Origin: a virus
Length of the DNA stretch: 24,508 nt
Virus record (IMG/VR): IMGVR_UViG_3300034198_028150
Location: 1 to 24,508 of that record
Reading direction: 5' to 3' (one strand)
In this document: one piece after another, positions 3,161 through 23,429 of the stretch
How the letters are laid out: every line of letters starts with the position of its first letter
How positions within the stretch are numbered: the stretch's first letter is position 1
Translations under genes and position numbers: made by a program
The notes under the pieces: generated by a model
What the model was told of the DNA's origin: nothing
What the model saw: the letters and a program-made list of their open reading frames with translations, nothing else
Database searches by the model: none

Positions 3161-3568
3161 ATGGCTTCACTCTCCGCTGGATCGAGCCTTGCGCAGGGGC
3201 TTTACAACCAGTCCTTTGGCTCGGCCTCGAAGCGCTTCAAGGGAGAGGACAGCGAAGGTATCGGCGGGGCACCGATCAGTAATGCGGCGACACAGGCGTT
3301 TGCCGATGCGCAGAACAAGGACTACATGAAGAGCGTGGGCCCGACAGTGGAAGGCGTCGCAAATGCGTTCTCGGCCAAGGCGCAGGCCATGAGCAATGTC
3401 AACTCGGCGTATTTGAATGCGTTTGCGCAGATGGCCGCACCCAAGCAGCAGGGCTCGGGCGGTGATGGGATCCTAGGTGCAGCGATTGGGGCGGCAGGAA
3501 GTATCCTGGGTGGACCGACAGGTGGAGTGGCTGCCAAGGGATTGTCGAAAGTATTCAACTTTGGCTAG
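3161..3568 (+). CDS. Small Gly-rich putative internal virion protein
   Basis: This 135-residue protein starts at ATG 3161. The N-terminal two thirds are Ala/Ser/Gln-rich and helix-prone. The C-terminus carries a hydrophobic glycine-zipper stretch (GILGAAIGAAGSILGGPTGG, about residues 104-123) followed by a short basic tail. A glycine zipper of this kind is typical of small phage proteins that insert into membranes or are ejected. I do not recognise a named family. The stop codon TAG at 3566 lies in GGCTAGCC, so one CTAG here is explained by the stop codon rather than by a promoter box. Confidence 0.6.
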   Translation: MASLSAGSSLAQGLYNQSFGSASKRFKGEDSEGIGGAPISNAATQAFADAQNKDYMKSVGPTVEGVANAFSAKAQAMSNVNSAYLNAFAQMAAPKQQGSGGDGILGAAIGAAGSILGGPTGGVAAKGLSKVFNFG

Positions 3569-3608
3569 CCCTGGCGCAGGTCGCGAGAAGCCAACGAAGT
3601 GCCCTGGC

Positions 3609-3614
3609 TAGGAT
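3609..3614 (+). promoter_or_regulatory. TGGCTAGGAT box (putative promoter)
   Basis: TAGGAT within TGGCTAGGAT, in the 76-nt gap between the genes at 3161 and 3645, 30 nt before the GTG start. No -35 sequence is recognisable. Confidence 0.5.
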
Positions 3615-3644
3615 GGCGAGAGAACTGCTGTAGGGACGAGGACC

Positions 3645-4364
3645 GTGGAAACCTGGAGCGGGAATCGGCGATACCTCAATATGCCCGAACCTCGCGCTTC
3701 GGGGCCCGCGGTTGCGCCGTCTGACCTTCCCCCTGCTGCCCCAAGTACTGCTGACCCCCGTGGAGCAGCCACTGGTCGCGTCGCCGGAGAGCGTTTGGCG
3801 GCAGCAGGTGATTATCTGGCTCAGGTTCGCAGGTCTTTTTATGATCGGCTGGGTCCGAACATACCCAGGCTGGGCACGCTGGCCGCGCTGGGTGGTTTGG
3901 CGGCGGGAGTGGCGTTGCCTCAGTTCGGTGATCAAGCGGGCAGCTCTCTGCAGAACACGGCCAGTGGGTTGACGGCGCTTGGGATTCTGGGCGCTCCGGC
4001 ACTGATGAAGCGTAACTTGGGCGTGCGTGGCGTGCTGGGCGCAGGCGCACTGGCGGCTCTTGGGGCCCAGGGCGCTCGGGCTGCGGTGGAGACAGTCGAG
4101 GGGCCGGGTGGACGCGCCAGGCAGGAGGCCCTGCAAACGATGCGTGATCAGCTGGACCTGCAGAGCGCAGCGGCACAGCAGGCCCTGGCGATTGAGCAGC
4201 AGCGTGCCGAGATGGCACGTCGGAACCTGTACGAGACGCTGCCAGCGCAGGCTGCGGTGGTGAGCATTCAAACGACGCCGGCACTGATGATGCAGGCCCT
4301 GCAGAGCCAAAGTGCCAATTCGCAGGCCCTGATCAATTCCCTGGGCCAGATCTACGCGAGCTGA
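3645..4364 (+). CDS. Ala-rich putative internal virion protein
   Basis: The start is GTG 3645, with GGGACGAGGA just upstream as a plausible ribosome site. It gives 239 residues. The N-terminus is Pro-rich (LPPAAPSTADP, encoded by a 12-mer repeat copy). Two hydrophobic Ala/Gly/Leu helices follow (about 78-95 and 130-150), then a Gln/Ala/Glu-rich probable coiled coil (about 160-205). The architecture resembles that of the gene at 940-1749, and the two may be functional relatives. I do not recognise the family. The stop is linked to the next gene by TGATCATG, so the two are probably co-translated. An ejection or capsid-internal role is inferred. Confidence 0.6.
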   Translation: METWSGNRRYLNMPEPRASGPAVAPSDLPPAAPSTADPRGAATGRVAGERLAAAGDYLAQVRRSFYDRLGPNIPRLGTLAALGGLAAGVALPQFGDQAGSSLQNTASGLTALGILGAPALMKRNLGVRGVLGAGALAALGAQGARAAVETVEGPGGRARQEALQTMRDQLDLQSAAAQQALAIEQQRAEMARRNLYETLPAQAAVVSIQTTPALMMQALQSQSANSQALINSLGQIYAS

Positions 4365-4366
4365 TC

Positions 4367-4855
4367 ATGGCCTTTGAACTCGCTACGAATTTTCTGGGTG
4401 CGCGCAACGCTGCACAGATGCGCCCCTTTGAGATGCCTGCGCACATCCTGAGCAATGAGGCGACGACGGCGTTTCGAGAGACGGCCGTGAAGAACACCGA
4501 GGCCCTGGCTTCCGCGCTGCCGACCGCAATTCAAGCCGTGGGGGCGGTCAAGGGAGAACAGGAGCGGCTGAAGGGCGTGATCGCAACCCAGGCCGGAAAC
4601 CTTCTGGCACAGCAGTCTCTGAACGAGACCAGCCTCACCCTGCAGCGCGAGAAGATTAACGCCAACAAGCGAGCGAACCTGCTGAGCAATCTGGCGGGGA
4701 TGGCTCAGGGTAGTTTTCAAGCGCCCCCTCCGGCAGCAACGGCGGATCCGATAGCCATGAAGCAGGCGGTGGCGACGCTGCTGGCGGGGTCGAGAGCGCC
4801 AAGTGCTGTTGCAGAGGCTCTGAGGAGCTTGAACACCGACAATCCAGCCGGTTGA
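4367..4855 (+). CDS. Unrecognised Ala/Gln/Thr-rich helical protein
   Basis: This 162-residue protein starts at ATG 4367, two bases after the previous stop (TGATCATG). It is almost wholly helix-prone and free of Cys and Trp. A Gln/Asn/Leu-rich region (about 60-110) is likely coiled coil, and an Ala/Pro linker follows. The stop at 4853-4855 ends a two-gene unit begun by the box at 3609. I do not recognise the family. Its place among Ala-rich genes and its fibrous composition suggest a minor virion component; no direct functional evidence is visible. Confidence 0.6.
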   Translation: MAFELATNFLGARNAAQMRPFEMPAHILSNEATTAFRETAVKNTEALASALPTAIQAVGAVKGEQERLKGVIATQAGNLLAQQSLNETSLTLQREKINANKRANLLSNLAGMAQGSFQAPPPAATADPIAMKQAVATLLAGSRAPSAVAEALRSLNTDNPAG

Positions 4856-4886
4856 ACAGTTTCAAAGCGGATCGCCGTTCTTGGCT

Positions 4887-4892
4887 AGGATG
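4887..4892 (+). promoter_or_regulatory. TTGGCTAGGAT box (putative promoter)
   Basis: Third exact TGGCTAGGAT, in the 62-nt gap after the stop at 4855 and 25 nt before the ATG at 4918. Confidence 0.5.
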
Positions 4893-4917
4893 ACATCAGA
4901 GAATGTTTTGAACCAAT

Positions 4918-5628
4918 ATGGCCAGTAGCGCGCCATGGACGTTTGAAGTTTTGCCGGCGGGCTTGGCCAAGTTCTTCGGCAAGCCAGATCTTGGGCAGCT
5001 CATGGCCATGCCCGAAGATGTAGCGATCAAAGCAGCTCAGTACGCTCCCCTCGATAAGAAGTATGGACTGCTTGCCGAGATGGAGAGGCGCCGACGAGAT
5101 TTGAATCTGGCCAATGCCAACGCTGCGCAGGGCGTTCAATTCCGGGGCGCTCAGCAGGGTCTTGCAATCCAGGAGCAGCTGGGCAAGCTCCAAAGGATCA
5201 ATCAGGGATGGGTCAGTTCCCTGGCAAACGACGCAGCCAGCCAGCGGAGTGGCTTGAAAATCAACGAAGCCAAGGCAGGCACGGAAAATCAACTGCAAGT
5301 TCAGGGTGCGGCTCACACGCAAGATCTTGAACTTAGAGATGCTGATACACGGAATACCAACCTGATTAGTGACAACACAACAGAGAACCTGGGCAAGTTA
5401 ATTGGCCAGAAAGGCGTGCTTCAGCGAATGCTGATTGGAGACCTGACCAGGGACGAGCAACTTAAGCAACAAGGCATTCTGGATTACAGCAAATACGTTT
5501 ACGACGATTCTGCCAAGTACCGCGATCGAGTGTTGGAATACCAACTCCAGCAAAATCGAGATCCGTTAAACAGAATTACCCGGTTCGCGGGGAATCTCGC
5601 CCCGCTCATTGCGGCTTTCAGCGGCTGA
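4918..5628 (+). CDS. Unrecognised Gln/Asn-rich helical protein
   Basis: This 236-residue protein starts at ATG 4918, 25 nt after the TAGGAT box. The first 60 residues contain LAKFFGKPDLGQLMAMP. The rest is a long run of Gln, Asn, Asp and Leu, predicted by eye to be mostly helix (about 65-220), with a short hydrophobic tail (NLAPLIAAFSG). The DNA is more AT-rich than its neighbours between about 5280 and 5600. I do not recognise the family. Its long helical body and position suggest an internal or fibrous virion protein, by inference only. Confidence 0.6.
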   Translation: MASSAPWTFEVLPAGLAKFFGKPDLGQLMAMPEDVAIKAAQYAPLDKKYGLLAEMERRRRDLNLANANAAQGVQFRGAQQGLAIQEQLGKLQRINQGWVSSLANDAASQRSGLKINEAKAGTENQLQVQGAAHTQDLELRDADTRNTNLISDNTTENLGKLIGQKGVLQRMLIGDLTRDEQLKQQGILDYSKYVYDDSAKYRDRVLEYQLQQNRDPLNRITRFAGNLAPLIAAFSG

Positions 5629-5632
5629 CAAC

Positions 5633-6049
5633 ATGGCTTCTTACGCATCTCCGTCTGACAATTCCGGGTCTGACTACGACTTCAAGACCATCCCGGGCCA
5701 GCTGGTCAACAGCGGACTGCAGGGACTGAAAGACCTGGCGACCAAGTACAAGGACAACGAGGTCGTCGGCAACCTGGCCGTCGGCGGAATCGCCGATGTC
5801 AGCAAGACCCAGGCCAACACGGGCCTCGCTGCTGCCTACAACGATGCGTTTCTCGGCAGTCTGCACAAGTTTTCGGCGGCTCAGAACGAAAACCAGGCCA
5901 CCACGGCGCAACAGTTGGCGTCCTACCAGAGCGGCCTGGAGTCTAAGCGCGAGAGGGAGACGATCGACCGCGCCGATGAATCCAAGGAGCGCGGCTTCCA
6001 GAATCAGGTGAATCGGATCGATCAGTTCTCCCGGCGACAGTTCGGCTGA
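5633..6049 (+). CDS. Unrecognised small helical protein
   Basis: The chosen start is ATG 5633, four bases after the previous stop; upstream in-frame starts would overlap the preceding gene. The product has 138 residues: a Ser/Gly/Asp-rich N-terminus, then helix-prone sequence with a Gly/Ala hydrophobic patch (NLAVGGIADVSKTQANTGLAAA). The C-terminal half is highly charged (ESKRERETIDRADESKER) and probably coiled coil. The stop TGA overlaps the next ATG (TGATGG, 6047-6051), implying coupled translation with the candidate small terminase. I do not recognise the family. Confidence 0.6.
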   Translation: MASYASPSDNSGSDYDFKTIPGQLVNSGLQGLKDLATKYKDNEVVGNLAVGGIADVSKTQANTGLAAAYNDAFLGSLHKFSAAQNENQATTAQQLASYQSGLESKRERETIDRADESKERGFQNQVNRIDQFSRRQFG

Positions 6050-6552
6050 TGGCAGACCTGGATCCGGTTCTGGATTTCATCGCGACCCTGGACGACGATC
6101 GCCGGGACGCCTTCCTGGAGTGCGCTGAGCATGTGTACTCGGTCTACGAGATCTGGCTCTACGCGGGGGTGCTGGGCTATCAGGGTGGTTTCGCGTCGCT
6201 GGAGCGCTGGGTGCAGCAGCGGTTCCGCAAGCTTGACCGGCGCCGGCTGATCCTGGATGAGATCGGCAAACTGAAGGACGACATCGGTGTCCTGCGCGAA
6301 CAGGTGCGTCAAAGCTTGGTGGAGGCCAATGACGCCGCACCGCGGATCGCTCAACTGTCCAAGGAGCTGCGGGGGCATGTCGTCGAGGTCGAGAAGATGA
6401 CCCGAGCGACCGACCGCCGGGGCCTGATTCTGGCCGGTGCCGATCGCGTGATCCGCGAACTCAAGACAATCTTCAAGGGCAACGACGACATGATGAACGC
6501 CCTGGGCCTGGCTTGCGAGTCGGTGTGGGCCGCTATCGAAGAAGACCGCTGA
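6049..6552 (+). CDS. Candidate terminase small subunit (by position)
   Basis: This 167-residue protein overlaps the previous stop by one base and lies directly before the large terminase gene. The N-terminal 60 residues are acidic and aromatic (YSVYEIWLYAGVLGYQGGFASLERWVQQRF), ending in a segment that could be a helix-turn-helix. From about residue 65 onward it is a charged, probably coiled-coil helix. A DNA-binding N-terminus plus helical oligomerisation region, just upstream of terL, is the usual small-terminase plan, in which the subunit recognises phage DNA and delivers it to the large subunit. No family signature is certain, so a helical accessory protein remains possible. A 12-mer repeat begins on the base after the stop. 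Confidence 0.5.
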   Translation: MADLDPVLDFIATLDDDRRDAFLECAEHVYSVYEIWLYAGVLGYQGGFASLERWVQQRFRKLDRRRLILDEIGKLKDDIGVLREQVRQSLVEANDAAPRIAQLSKELRGHVVEVEKMTRATDRRGLILAGADRVIRELKTIFKGNDDMMNALGLACESVWAAIEEDR

Positions 6553-19912: not shown

Positions 19913-20947
19913 TCAGTAAACGAAAGAGTAGGCGATGGTCACGAAGTCCTTGTTCAGGATCTCGAAACCGGCGAAGATCGACCAGATCATAATGATGAAA
20001 CGACTGAAGTCGTCGTTGTTGTTCAGCATGATCTGAGCGTTGTCGCCACCGATGCCCACACCCACAGCCTGAGGCCCGAAGAAAATCATCGGGGCAGCCG
20101 TGGTGACGGCGTTGGTGATCGCAGCGTCAGTGATGGTGACCTGCAGGGACTTCTCGGCCAGGTTGGTGCTCTCAAACCAGCGGACGCCCTCAAAGAGGAA
20201 GCCGCTCGGCATGACAGGTTGACCAGCCACAAAGCCGGCTTGACCGTAAGCAGGGCCCATGCCGCGGAAGAAGCTCGCATTGGGGGCGAGTTCCGGCTGC
20301 ATCGGGTTGACCATGCCATTGCCCGCGTAACGAGCAATTTCACGGAAGCTGTCGTTCTGGCGCAGGTGCATCATCGCAGTGGGGTCTGCGATACAGCGGT
20401 AGTAGCCGTCAGCGAACGTGGGAACGTTGCGCTTACGCATATCCTTGACAACTTCAAGGAGATCCGTCTTGACGTCGAACTTCGCCGATTCCCCAGCGGC
20501 ATAGCTCAGGAACGGGGCAGAAGCCGCTTTGGACTTCTTGAGGGGGTAGTAGTAGCCGCCCTTGGTGCCATCAGCAGCACCGTTAGTCTCCGCCGTGAAA
20601 AGCTCATCGGAAAAGACACGGTCACGCCAGCGTCTGTAGTCATCCAGGAGGGTGAGACTGCCGATTGACTGATGGAAAATGTTTAGGTTTCCAGAGTCGA
20701 GCAACAGGCGCTGAGCCGTAAGAAGCGTCTCCCGGGCAACCTTGAAGGTGCTGGGGGCGGTGGCATCGGTCGGGTCAGCAGGTCCGGTGTACTCGACGAG
20801 AGTCACCAGGACCTTGTCCTTAACAATGGAACGAGAAGATGCGGTTCCGAGTGTTTGATCAGCCGTACGTGCTCGCGAATCTTTCGTGCCAGGGGCACCC
20901 CAGAAGCGATACCTGTCTAACTGAACTGTTTGTCCGGGTTGTTTGGT
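19913..20947 (-). CDS. Major capsid protein, exon 3 (N4 gp56-like)
   Basis: This exon encodes the last 344 residues of the major capsid protein. Coding clearly extends upstream of the GTG at 20806: the same frame reads TKQPGQTVQLDRYRFWGAPG, then RTADQTLGTASSRSIVKDKV and VLVTLVEYTGP, a block typical of the N-terminal part of N4 gp56-type capsid proteins. Later hallmarks are VPTFADGYYRCIADPTAMMH, NDSFREIARYAGNG and FEGVRWFESTNL. The exon starts right after the 3' end of a group I intron (last intron base G at 20948). Joined to exon 2 and the predicted exon 1, it gives 383 residues, close to the roughly 400 of N4 gp56. TGA at 19915-19913 is followed by the decoration-like gene. Confidence 0.85.
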   Translation of the reverse strand, partial: TKQPGQTVQLDRYRFWGAPGTKDSRARTADQTLGTASSRSIVKDKVLVTLVEYTGPADPTDATAPSTFKVARETLLTAQRLLLDSGNLNIFHQSIGSLTLLDDYRRWRDRVFSDELFTAETNGAADGTKGGYYYPLKKSKAASAPFLSYAAGESAKFDVKTDLLEVVKDMRKRNVPTFADGYYRCIADPTAMMHLRQNDSFREIARYAGNGMVNPMQPELAPNASFFRGMGPAYGQAGFVAGQPVMPSGFLFEGVRWFESTNLAEKSLQVTITDAAITNAVTTAAPMIFFGPQAVGVGIGGDNAQIMLNNNDDFSRFIIMIWSIFAGFEILNKDFVTIAYSFVY

Positions 20948-21250
20948 CTGAATACGCCGTAGGCGTCGCAGGGTTCTTTATCCCTGCTCACCGTCTTAAG
21001 GGCGACGGTGCATAGACTATATCATCACCCACAGCGTGATCTGTTTGGGTGCCCCGCGCTCGTGTCACCTTATCGGCTTCTTGGAGATAGTTCTCCCGGT
21101 CAGCCTCGGTGTTAGTCGTTGAACCTTCCGCCCATTTCGGAGCGGCTTGGCTGCTGATTAGCCTCCCTGCTTTCGCAGGGTCCGGCCTTCCAGCAATTCA
21201 CGGGGTTTTCGACCAGGCTTTCACCTGGAAGCTTCGAGGCCCTGCAGCCC
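20948..21250 (-). ncRNA. Group I intron B in the major capsid gene
   Basis: On the minus strand all core elements are present. P-like segment: GTGAATTGCTGGAA (within 21201-21184). P5 hairpin CCCTGCGAAAGCAGGG (21180-21165). Q: TAATCAGCAGCCAAGCC (21160-21144). R: GTTCAACGACTAACACC (within 21124-21105). S: GATGATATAGTCTATGC (21026-21010). GACTA in R pairs with TAGTC in S as P7, and TGCTG with CAGCA as P4. Three 3' hairpins follow: CACCGTC/GACGGTG, GCAGGG/CCCTGC and ACGCC/GGCGT (20966-20954). Intron end: ATTCAG, with terminal G at 20948. The 5' splice site is probably after T 21251 (P1 CUUU/GAAG); T 21257 is an alternative in the same phase. About 303 nt, with no internal ORF. Confidence 0.85.
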
Positions 21251-21342
21251 AAAGTCATGAACAACCACGGGTTCCACCGCCATTTCCACCACATAGGAGG
21301 GGTGGGGACGGTAGAGCTCGGCACCGAGCACCTTGGGGAAAT
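21251..21342 (-). CDS. Major capsid protein, exon 2 (92 nt)
   Basis: Between the two introns lies a 92-nt exon. Reading AT, then TTC CCC AAG and on, it encodes FPKVLGAELYRPHPSYVVEM and AVEPVVVHDF. It ends on a codon boundary and joins exon 3 as ...VVVHDF/TKQPGQTV.... The two leading bases complete a codon begun in exon 1; with a T from exon 1 this would be Tyr. The hydrophobic, acidic segment fits the N-terminal region of an N4 gp56-type capsid protein. If the downstream 5' splice site is instead at 21257, the exon loses its last two residues. Confidence 0.7.
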
Positions 21343-21612
21343 CATTCAGTGTTTCCTGGGTTTCCCCAGGGACTGGACCATCTCTTCACCCCAGAGGGGT
21401 GCCGGGCGCTGATGGCGTATTACTGGGAGAGCGCTCCCAACCGCCTGGCCTCTGCACGTTCCAGCCACGCTTGGCTGGCTTCGCTCAGGATTGCCCTCGT
21501 CTTGACGTTAGGGTTTCCCTGAATTCACCCGGTTTTCACCGACCGATTGCTCGATCGGGCGACAACTTGAGCGCTCCACTGATACAGTTCAGATGATTTA
21601 GGGAGTGATAAG

Positions 21613-22146
21613 TTGGAACCAGTTCAGGTTCCGGGATTTGAAAACCTTTGGATCACGAGGGATGCTCAGGTTTTTGAGGGCGAGACGCCCTTCTCCCTGC
21701 TGCCCTTACGCGTGAGCTGTAGCAGCACGTACGCAAGGGTCTCCGTCTTGGTGAATGGTCGGCGACAACGCATTCACGTGCATGTCTTGATGGCTCAAGC
21801 GTTCCTTGGCCTGGACCCGACGAAGCGGGGCACGCAAGGAGACTCGTTGCAGGTAGACCACAAAGACGGAAACAAGCGCAACAATCACATCGACAACCTT
21901 GAAGTGGTGACCAAGCGGGAGAACTACCGCCGTGCGCAAGGCAGGGGGTGTTACGACCGCAATGGCTACGCATCCAAGGGTCGCCCAAAAATGGGCCTCA
22001 GGCGTTTCAGCCCAGCCGACATTGACCAAATGTTCGAGTTGCGCAACCAGGGGTTGAGCTATCGAGAGATTGGTCGTCGGTTTGGATGCGATCACAAGGC
22101 TGTCTATCAGATCATCAAGGGAACCACGTACCAGGCGTGGAGCTAG
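21613..22146 (+). CDS. HNH homing endonuclease with C-terminal HTH
   Basis: This 177-residue protein starts at TTG 21613, with AGGGAGTG about 6 nt upstream. The N-terminus (VPGFENLWITRDAQVF) is a NUMOD4-like module. The HNH core spans about residues 53-108: IHVHVLMAQAF, then VDHKDGNKRNNHIDNLEVVT (D82-H83 and N90/N91/N95 in the expected places) and KRENYRRA. Residues 133-170 form a helix-turn-helix (LSYREIGRRFGCDHKAVYQI). Free-standing or intron-borne enzymes of this type cut intronless alleles to spread the element. The gene runs antisense to the capsid gene, next to the intron A core and inside the intron on the exon 1 model. A GGAACC/GGTTCC hairpin (21615-21632) overlaps its start. Confidence 0.88.
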   Translation: MEPVQVPGFENLWITRDAQVFEGETPFSLLPLRVSCSSTYARVSVLVNGRRQRIHVHVLMAQAFLGLDPTKRGTQGDSLQVDHKDGNKRNNHIDNLEVVTKRENYRRAQGRGCYDRNGYASKGRPKMGLRRFSPADIDQMFELRNQGLSYREIGRRFGCDHKAVYQIIKGTTYQAWS

Positions 22147-22204
22147 CTATCGATCCACATGGGATGAAATGCTCCTTGGTGTGAGGTGTACGAGAAGGCG
22201 CGCA

Positions 22205-22957
22205 ATGCGTCTTCCTTGTCGTATGGTATGGGTATGTCGTAGGGCAAAACGCTTGGACGCTGGAGACGTGCGAGGACTATTAGGCCTCCTGCTGCCTGAT
22301 GGAAGTTTGGTTTCTTACCGGACGCCCACCGGCGGCTACGTGCAAATGATCTTGACTGCGGGTATTGGCGAGTCGGCGTTCCTGCAGGACAAGATCGACG
22401 AGTTCAAACGCTTTCTGCCGACTAAGGCGCAGATCGTGCCGTACCGCACCGGTCGCCCGGGACGCGGTCGCACAACGACAGTGCTGCGGTTTCGGGTGTC
22501 GACGGATCAGCTGCGACCGGTCTACAACCTGCTGTACCCGGGCGGCGATCGCATGATCACAAGCGCCTGTCTGGAAATGCTCGGTGCTCGCGCTGCTGCC
22601 TGGCTATGGGCAGAAGGCGCCAGACCCCATGGTGATCGCGTTGACCTGGCTCGCGTGGGCTTCACGCTGTATGAGGCTGAACTGGTCTCGCAGTGGCTAG
22701 CCACAATCACCGGGGCGACCAGCGAGATTGCCGAGGAATGGGTTCGCCCCCGGCTGCGCTTCGATGCGGAACAAGCCGAGAAACTGCGGACGGCGCTGTG
22801 GTCCTATGCGCCGACCAGTCGTCGGCACCTGTTCACGAACGAAACCTGGGATGTCAGCACCATTCGTAGCGCTCGCACTGAGCTATTGCATGGGGAAGGG
22901 ATCGATCAGCCTGAAGGGCCGTCGCCAGGGGCCCTGGCTGGAGATCTGCCGGCCTGA
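22205..22957 (+). CDS. LAGLIDADG homing endonuclease, N-terminal domain (frameshifted)
   Basis: The chosen start is ATG 22205, with GAGAAGG about 7 nt upstream; ATG 22223 is possible. The domain shows the LAGLIDADG_2-type pattern: DVRGLLGLLLPDGSLVS with the catalytic Asp, then VYNLLYPGGDRMITSACLEM, then ARAAAWLWAEGARPHG in place of the usual AxWyMDDGS, then ARVGFTLYEAELVSQWL. A second copy of the domain lies in the +1 frame downstream. In this frame the second LAGLIDADG helix begins (ELLHGEG, ending at 22900) but continues with unrelated sequence to TGA at 22957. The natural protein is probably the frame-joined form ending at 23429. Antisense to the capsid intron A. Confidence 0.75.
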   Translation: MRLPCRMVWVCRRAKRLDAGDVRGLLGLLLPDGSLVSYRTPTGGYVQMILTAGIGESAFLQDKIDEFKRFLPTKAQIVPYRTGRPGRGRTTTVLRFRVSTDQLRPVYNLLYPGGDRMITSACLEMLGARAAAWLWAEGARPHGDRVDLARVGFTLYEAELVSQWLATITGATSEIAEEWVRPRLRFDAEQAEKLRTALWSYAPTSRRHLFTNETWDVSTIRSARTELLHGEGIDQPEGPSPGALAGDLPA

Positions 22958-23429
22958 AACCGAGCGGTCTTACCTGCTGCACCAGGTCAAGCAATTGCGT
23001 CAGTGTCATGACGGCCCCCTGGAGGTCGTGCATGACCGCTTGCCTGGAACTGGTTTTTATGACGACGAGCGTGTTCGGATCCGATCGGAAGCTCTGCGTC
23101 GGGCATACGAGTTGCTGTACCCCAGGGACGAACGTTTCCTCAGTGAGCGGGTGCTGTCGATCGTGGGGCAGCAGGGGCTGGCTGCCCTGTGGTCCGATCA
23201 AGCGGAGTTGAACGGGAACTTCGTGGTTTTTAAGATGCGGCGTTCGGCGGAGGAGGTCGAGTTGCTGCGTTCCTGGCTGCAGGGGATGGGCCGGGTGTCA
23301 GAGCCGTGGCCCTCAAAAGGCAAAATCCAGGGTTTTAAGGTGCGCTTGATCACGGGCCGAAAGATATATCGCTCCCTGATGCCCCTGCTGCACGGTGATG
23401 TACGCAAGAACTGGAGAAGTCTTTGCTAG
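22851..23429 (+). CDS. LAGLIDADG homing endonuclease, C-terminal domain (other frame)
   Basis: This frame encodes the second domain: SISLKGRRQGPWLEICRPET from base 22902, AYELLYPRDERFLSERVLSI, QGLAALWSDQAEL, and RRSAEEVELLRSWLQGMGRV, ending at TAG 23429. It aligns by eye with the first domain (YNLLYP/YELLYP; AAAWLWAEGA/LAALWSDQAE; YEAELVSQWL/EEVELLRSWL), so the two halves are a tandem duplication in one ancestral protein. ATG 22851 is the nearest sensible start if translated alone. Read in this frame, the motif before 22902 is CMGKG, with Lys where the other frame has Glu, so a +1 shift near 22898-22902 best restores the enzyme. It may be a decayed gene, a programmed shift or a base error. 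Confidence 0.65.
   Translation: MSAPFVALALSYCMGKGSISLKGRRQGPWLEICRPETERSYLLHQVKQLRQCHDGPLEVVHDRLPGTGFYDDERVRIRSEALRRAYELLYPRDERFLSERVLSIVGQQGLAALWSDQAELNGNFVVFKMRRSAEEVELLRSWLQGMGRVSEPWPSKGKIQGFKVRLITGRKIYRSLMPLLHGDVRKNWRSLC

Follow-up and report, generated by a model that had tools for sequence, protein, structure and literature searches.

How can a major capsid gene interrupted by two ribozyme-like elements be read as a single protein, and where in such a gene does translation begin? The locus that raises this question lies in a 24,508-base virus record (here termed the window), a single 24.5-kb metagenome contig rather than an isolate. A preliminary description of the window had proposed that two different group I introns interrupt its capsid gene, and had suggested a covariance-model search as a check. 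Interrogation of the minus strand with the Rfam group I model (RF00028; gathering score, 50) returned two matches, both above the gathering score and both full-length, which bears out the proposal. The limits of the gene were then fixed by spliced alignment and comparison with about 125 uninterrupted relatives, and place it at 19913-22160 of the minus strand, divided into three exons by introns that we designate A and B (Table 1).

Table 1. Coordinates of the capsid gene, its introns and associated elements in the window, with intron sites in related capsid genes
Feature	Position	Strand	Basis or remark
Ribosome-binding site AAGGAG, capsid gene	22172-22177	-	Sequence; GGAG-like stretch at the same position in many relatives
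Exon 1, ATGTGGATCGAT, encoding MWID, 12 nt	22149-22160	-	Spliced alignment; identical N-terminus MWID-NDFPK in uninterrupted relatives
Intron A, group I, 802 nt	21347-22148	-	Spliced alignment; same site in at least 143 loci
HNH homing-endonuclease gene, 177 aa, TTG start after GGGAGTGATAAG	21613-22146	+	PF13392, PHROG 59; antisense to capsid
Internal guide sequence of intron A, GUUGUCGCC	21558-21566	-	Inspection; exon/guide covariation
Ribozyme core of intron A	21354-21595	-	RF00028, 82.6 bits, E 6.6e-20, model 1-253, full-length
Exon 2, 96 nt, NDFPKVLGAELYRPHPSYVVEMAVEPVVVHDF	21251-21346	-	Spliced alignment
Intron B, group I, 303 nt	20948-21250	-	Spliced alignment; site also occupied in L010
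Ribozyme core of intron B	20989-21260	-	RF00028, 65.7 bits, E 7.6e-15, model 1-253, full-length
Exon 3, TKQPGQTVQLDRYRFWG to stop codon	19913-20947	-	Spliced alignment; PHROG 1357 major head protein
Predicted exon 1/exon 2 join in carriers of intron A	ATGTGGATYGAY + AAYGAYTTYCC		
Intron sites in the capsid gene across the lineage	after nt 12, 19, 54, 92, 107, 108, 111, 144, 159, 257, 261, 265, 321, 432, ~651, ~720, 849		

The reference for this structure is the uninterrupted state: among 80 capsid relatives from IMG/VR the gene is mostly one unbroken frame of about 380 codons, with the N-terminus MWIDNDFPKLLGAEL. When the window's exons (12, 96 and 1035 nt) are joined by computed splicing they yield a frame of 380 codons, and the predicted 380-residue product aligns end to end and collinearly with intronless relatives, as a comparison suggested in the preliminary description had anticipated. 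Both introns are in phase 0, A after codon 4 and B after codon 36; each 5' exon closes with U and each intron with G (GAU/CACTG for A, TTT/TTCAG for B); and exons 1 and 2 share the same phase and are free of stops. The capsid frame does extend from 20806 in the upstream direction, entering intron B, and beyond this intron a short exon joins in phase, as had been described, with the correction that this exon measures 96 rather than 92 nt. The four-codon first exon had been missed, together with the antisense HNH gene and the pattern across the lineage. Exon 2 was considered as the start of the gene and rejected, because relatives carry MWID upstream of it and the same residues are found 802 nt upstream in the window. 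The expectation that gene callers would report a truncated capsid from 20806 also holds, in that the open reading frame 20806-19913 is intact and the N-terminus lies upstream of it in the spliced frame; the residues absent from this shorter protein form a conserved N-terminus in all uninterrupted relatives. Annotation is affected elsewhere as well: in the GenBank record of Synechococcus phage S-EIV1 (L002, KJ410740.1; 60784-61545 and 61540-62010), an uninterrupted capsid frame appears as a truncated hypothetical protein and an antisense hypothetical protein.

Computed splicing also improves the profile match of the product. The score against PHROG 1357 ("major head protein") rises from 61.6 bits for the unspliced to 71.5 bits for the spliced protein, and coverage of the profile extends from positions 136-344 to positions 58-344, corresponding to protein residues 34-377. 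The capsid had been assigned to the N4 gp56 type, an attribution that we do not retain: TIGR04387 (N4-gp56) scores 15.2 bits (E 0.01) against a curated cut-off of 60, so that kinship with N4 gp56 is at best remote; the capsid match is to PHROG 1357. Among 50,697 phage records, the sole match to the capsid frame was that of S-EIV1, at 62.8% identity.

The two introns differ in their ends and content. Intron A begins with AGCTAGC and ends with CACTG; intron B begins with GGGCTG, ends with TTCAG and is without an endonuclease gene, and its RF00028 match extends over the final 10 nt of exon 2. In the P1 helix of intron A, the guide bases GUCG (21563-21560) pair with the CGAU that closes exon 1, placing a U.G pair at the splice site, and the GUU of the guide can apparently pair with either the intron start AGC or the exon 2 start AAU, which would fit the expectation for P1 and P10. 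An automatic search had offered a guide candidate at 21769, inside the HNH gene; that at 21566 is preferred, as it aligns with the guide of relatives. The corresponding 5' pairing of intron B is short (CUUU with GAAG, by inspection). Covariation between exon and guide is consistent throughout: exon nt 9, the wobble base of the Ile codon, and its guide partner are T-A in 94 loci and C-G in 48, without exception in the 142 of 143 loci scored (L167 being the one outside automatic scoring), a count that is inflated by the relatedness of the loci. Both states nevertheless appear in separate parts of the tree, the window's own clade among them, where the window has C-G and L007, L009 and L013 have T-A. 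Fourteen diverse intron A cores conform to one common fold of 52 pairs, of which 23 show compensatory changes, as computed by a program that does not represent the pseudoknotted P7. Translation of either intron would end early: an in-frame stop lies two codons into intron A (giving MWIDS and a stop), a sense stop at the second codon recurs in 83 of 93 distinct intron A sequences, and an in-frame stop lies in intron B as well.

Most of the length of intron A is taken up by the antisense HNH gene, whose protein matches PF13392 (HNH_3; E 8.9e-13) and PHROG 59 (E 3e-29). Since the guide at 21566-21558 lies beyond this gene, inspection places the gene in the P1 loop. The HNH proteins encoded by intron A in L007 and L009 are 55-57% identical to that of the window, and a search with the window's protein identified 23 contigs with proteins 54-59% identical, in every one of which (23/23) the HNH gene sits directly upstream of exon 2 of the same capsid gene. 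The median pairwise dN/dS of the family is 0.11 (702 pairs with dS between 0.05 and 1), pointing to purifying selection; pairs that include the window's gene are saturated at synonymous sites and so contribute no dN/dS. An antisense reading frame of at least 150 residues is retained in all 72 distinct long copies of intron A, and is missing from 21 short copies, several of which retain both ends of the lost gene. Short copies with both ends of the HNH region kept were observed in L150, L160, L163, L164, L207, L231, L233 and L241, and appear to be endonuclease deletion derivatives.

A second candidate for the endonuclease of intron A, the LAGLIDADG reading frame at 22070-22957, was rejected: the homologous part of it lies outside the intron and is shared by 75 of the 80 window-like relatives, most of them intronless. 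This plus-strand gene (LAGLIDADG_2, 34.1 bits) adjoins another at 22728-23429 on the same strand, a distant paralogue 26% identical to the first. The pair is divergent from the capsid gene, and its two members occur in 75 and 72, respectively, of the 80 window-like relatives, intronless ones included; no such pair was seen in the S-EIV1-like set. The possibility of a frameshift between its members was considered and dismissed, as relatives also read them in different open reading frames.

Intron A occupies exactly one site in at least 143 IMG/VR loci, the window included, some of which share a contig; these represent 93 distinct sequences, and the 3' splice-junction pattern was found in at least 120 stretches. 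Its distribution among capsids is patchy. In two sets of 80 that were not chosen for introns, a few members of each being without the N-terminus, it is present in three window-like and 21 S-EIV1-like capsids. Mapped onto a tree of 178 capsids, the presence of intron A changes 20 times, compared with 59 times when labels are shuffled, and at least 10 changes are forced by well-supported branches, counts that cannot separate gain from loss. At the finest scale, the capsid genes of L153 and L281 are almost the same in sequence, and just one of them contains intron A. A comparison of L009 with L011 shows identity over roughly 100 nt ahead of the start codon and over the initial 80 nt of exon 2, with about 20% divergence in the sequence still further upstream, an arrangement that has the look of a tract of conversion or recombination surrounding the intron site.

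Three other readings of the locus were weighed. Because the window is a single metagenome contig, its interruptions might be assembly chimeras, an explanation we consider exceedingly improbable given that the site, junction and HNH gene of intron A recur across many samples, at well over 100 loci, and that site 108, which intron B occupies, is filled in L010 too. Nor does it seem at all probable that the introns are decayed or defective and the capsid is made only from the short frame starting at 20806. That frame is indeed intact, but the N-terminal residues it would forgo are conserved in all uninterrupted relatives, core pairs and exon/guide pairing are kept with compensatory changes, and the first two exons remain in phase and stop-free. 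A less remote alternative is that the HNH gene is a passenger or has a regulatory role, and that intron A owes its distribution to vertical descent with occasional loss, not to homing. In its favor, all sampled members of the group L083-L105 carry intron A, in a sample biased by having been found through the HNH protein and the junction pattern; and the tree counts, blind to the direction of change, accommodate it as well. Against it, the intron comes and goes among near-identical capsids, and full-length HNH genes remain under purifying selection although HNH-minus copies exist at the same site, where intron A thus persists without the gene. We regard this alternative as unlikely. The reading that we favor with high confidence is that the capsid gene of this S-EIV1-like cyanophage is cut by two putatively self-splicing group I introns, of which A would be mobile by means of its HNH endonuclease and B is independent.

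The preliminary description considered two introns in one capsid gene unusual. Within this lineage they are not exceptional, as relatives carry three to six, and the capsid gene is, judging from the aligned sequences, a recurrent target for group I introns. About 17 intron sites were recognized in it; nearly every junction fits the rule of a U-ended exon and a G-ended intron, the same rule having been used to choose among equal alignments, and closely spaced sites (107/108/111 and 257/261/265) rest on that rule and may shift by a base or two. The most interrupted gene, that of L144 (IMGVR_UViG_3300020414_002119, 3648-6308), contains six group I introns, which follow approximately nt 12, 107, 257, 432, 651 and 720, with a U/G junction resolved at each and an Rfam group I core in all six. 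Five introns are apparent in L161 (three Rfam cores above threshold), and four each in L167 (two cores) and L013 (three above threshold, the fourth below it at 36 bits). Spliced alignment places those of L013 at nt 12, 54, 92 and 144, a junction assigned automatically at nt 77 being an artefact of skipping a 38-nt exon. The L013 intron at nt 54 (3560-4484), with a LAGLIDADG_2 gene and the sub-threshold match, may be reduced or divergent. Sense-strand LAGLIDADG_2 genes occur at some intron sites in L010, L013 and L059, and in L010 the intron B site (nt 108) is occupied by an intron with a LAGLIDADG gene. In L039, which is without intron A, a different group I intron (4055-4640; 86.2 bits) follows nt 19, a site read by eye, 7 nt past that of intron A; an automatic junction at nt 120 of the same gene was misplaced and is read as nt 107.

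The three-intron gene of phage Twort (orf142) is not known to be a capsid gene. Among the closest known parallels to the window is LittleE, a Cluster J mycobacteriophage with an intron of about 820 bp in its major capsid gene, the splicing of which was proved by RT-PCR (PMC3706429). The two share a U-ended 5' exon, a G-ended intron, an endonuclease gene on the opposite strand and closely related intronless capsids. They differ in that LittleE has one intron with a LAGLIDADG endonuclease, whereas the window has two, with HNH in A and a first exon of four codons, and in that splicing, proved in LittleE, is predicted from sequence in the window. There are precedents for phage genes with multiple group I introns, in Twort (Landthaler and Shub 1999, as cited in PMC11878797) and in Bastillevirinae, with two or three introns per gene (PMC11878797). 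The Bastillevirinae host genes encode polymerase or terminase; here the host gene encodes a capsid protein and holds two introns in the window, and relatives have as many as six. Three introns per phage gene was the maximum reported in the literature searched, and no account of introns in the capsid genes of S-EIV1-like phages emerged from a search that was not exhaustive.

Intron A had been likened to cyanobacterial tRNA introns, but no special closeness to these emerged. A strict pattern of its core was found in 11 genomes, none titled cyanobacterial and none with the match inside a tRNA called by ARAGORN, and blastn matched the core to phage introns, one of which, from psbA of cyanophage S-CBWM1, aligns with it at 69.5% over about 164 nt; a cyanobacterial tRNA origin is accordingly not supported. 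The psbA intron of the S-CBWM1/S-PM2 type likewise resides in a cyanophage gene, with a host gene and site different from those of intron A. The S-PM2 endonuclease F-CphI is described as free-standing (PMC3428280, citing Zeng 2009), whereas the HNH gene of the window lies inside intron A, in antisense. I-PfoP3I, an HNH nicking endonuclease from a DNA polymerase intron of cyanophage Pf-WMP3 (PMC3428280), resembles the window's enzyme in deriving from a cyanophage group I intron, and differs in gene and intron.

At this locus the sequences show intron cores, junctions, conserved exon-guide pairing, an endonuclease gene that has been maintained, and an intron gained or lost repeatedly. The course of events inferred for it is conventional. 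The transcript would fold, each intron would excise itself in two guanosine-initiated steps, and the exons would be joined. The HNH enzyme would introduce a cut or nick at the codon 4/5 boundary of capsid alleles that lack the intron, leading to the copying of intron A into them by homing; intron B would be an independent group I intron that carries no endonuclease. The early in-frame stops in both introns may serve to keep ribosomes that engage unspliced RNA out of the ribozyme cores. A ribosome starting translation covers a region that includes nt 9-12 of the reading frame. Because the P1 pairing of intron A involves these nucleotides, under the initiating ribosome, splicing and initiation on one RNA probably compete. 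It is conceivable, if doubtful, that splicing of intron A thereby controls capsid synthesis, the intron perhaps being kept by selection rather than being purely parasitic. Were this so, initiation and splicing would be mutually exclusive and unspliced RNA would give only MWIDS*, so that capsid output would be set by how fast splicing outruns initiation.

Each component described here is of a known kind, and the mechanism, self-splicing and homing, is conventional. The unusual aspects are how densely introns occur in one capsid gene across a lineage, and a first exon of just four codons with a P1 pairing that falls inside the footprint of the ribosome at the start site. The major capsid gene is a common kind of marker of viral diversity, and the lineage one of widespread uncultured cyanophages; its annotated capsids are truncated because of up to six introns and, often, the hidden four-codon exon. 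The locus raises the questions of how multiple introns are tolerated in a phage gene requiring very high expression, how the same twelve nucleotides can serve both ribosome start and splicing, and why a whole clade has fixed a LAGLIDADG pair beside its intron hotspot. The allele collection assembled, with well over 100 intron-plus and over 100 intron-minus members, covers about 17 intron sites within a single gene and includes introns that bear an endonuclease gene, introns from which it has been deleted and empty sites, and thereby makes models of the homing cycle testable.
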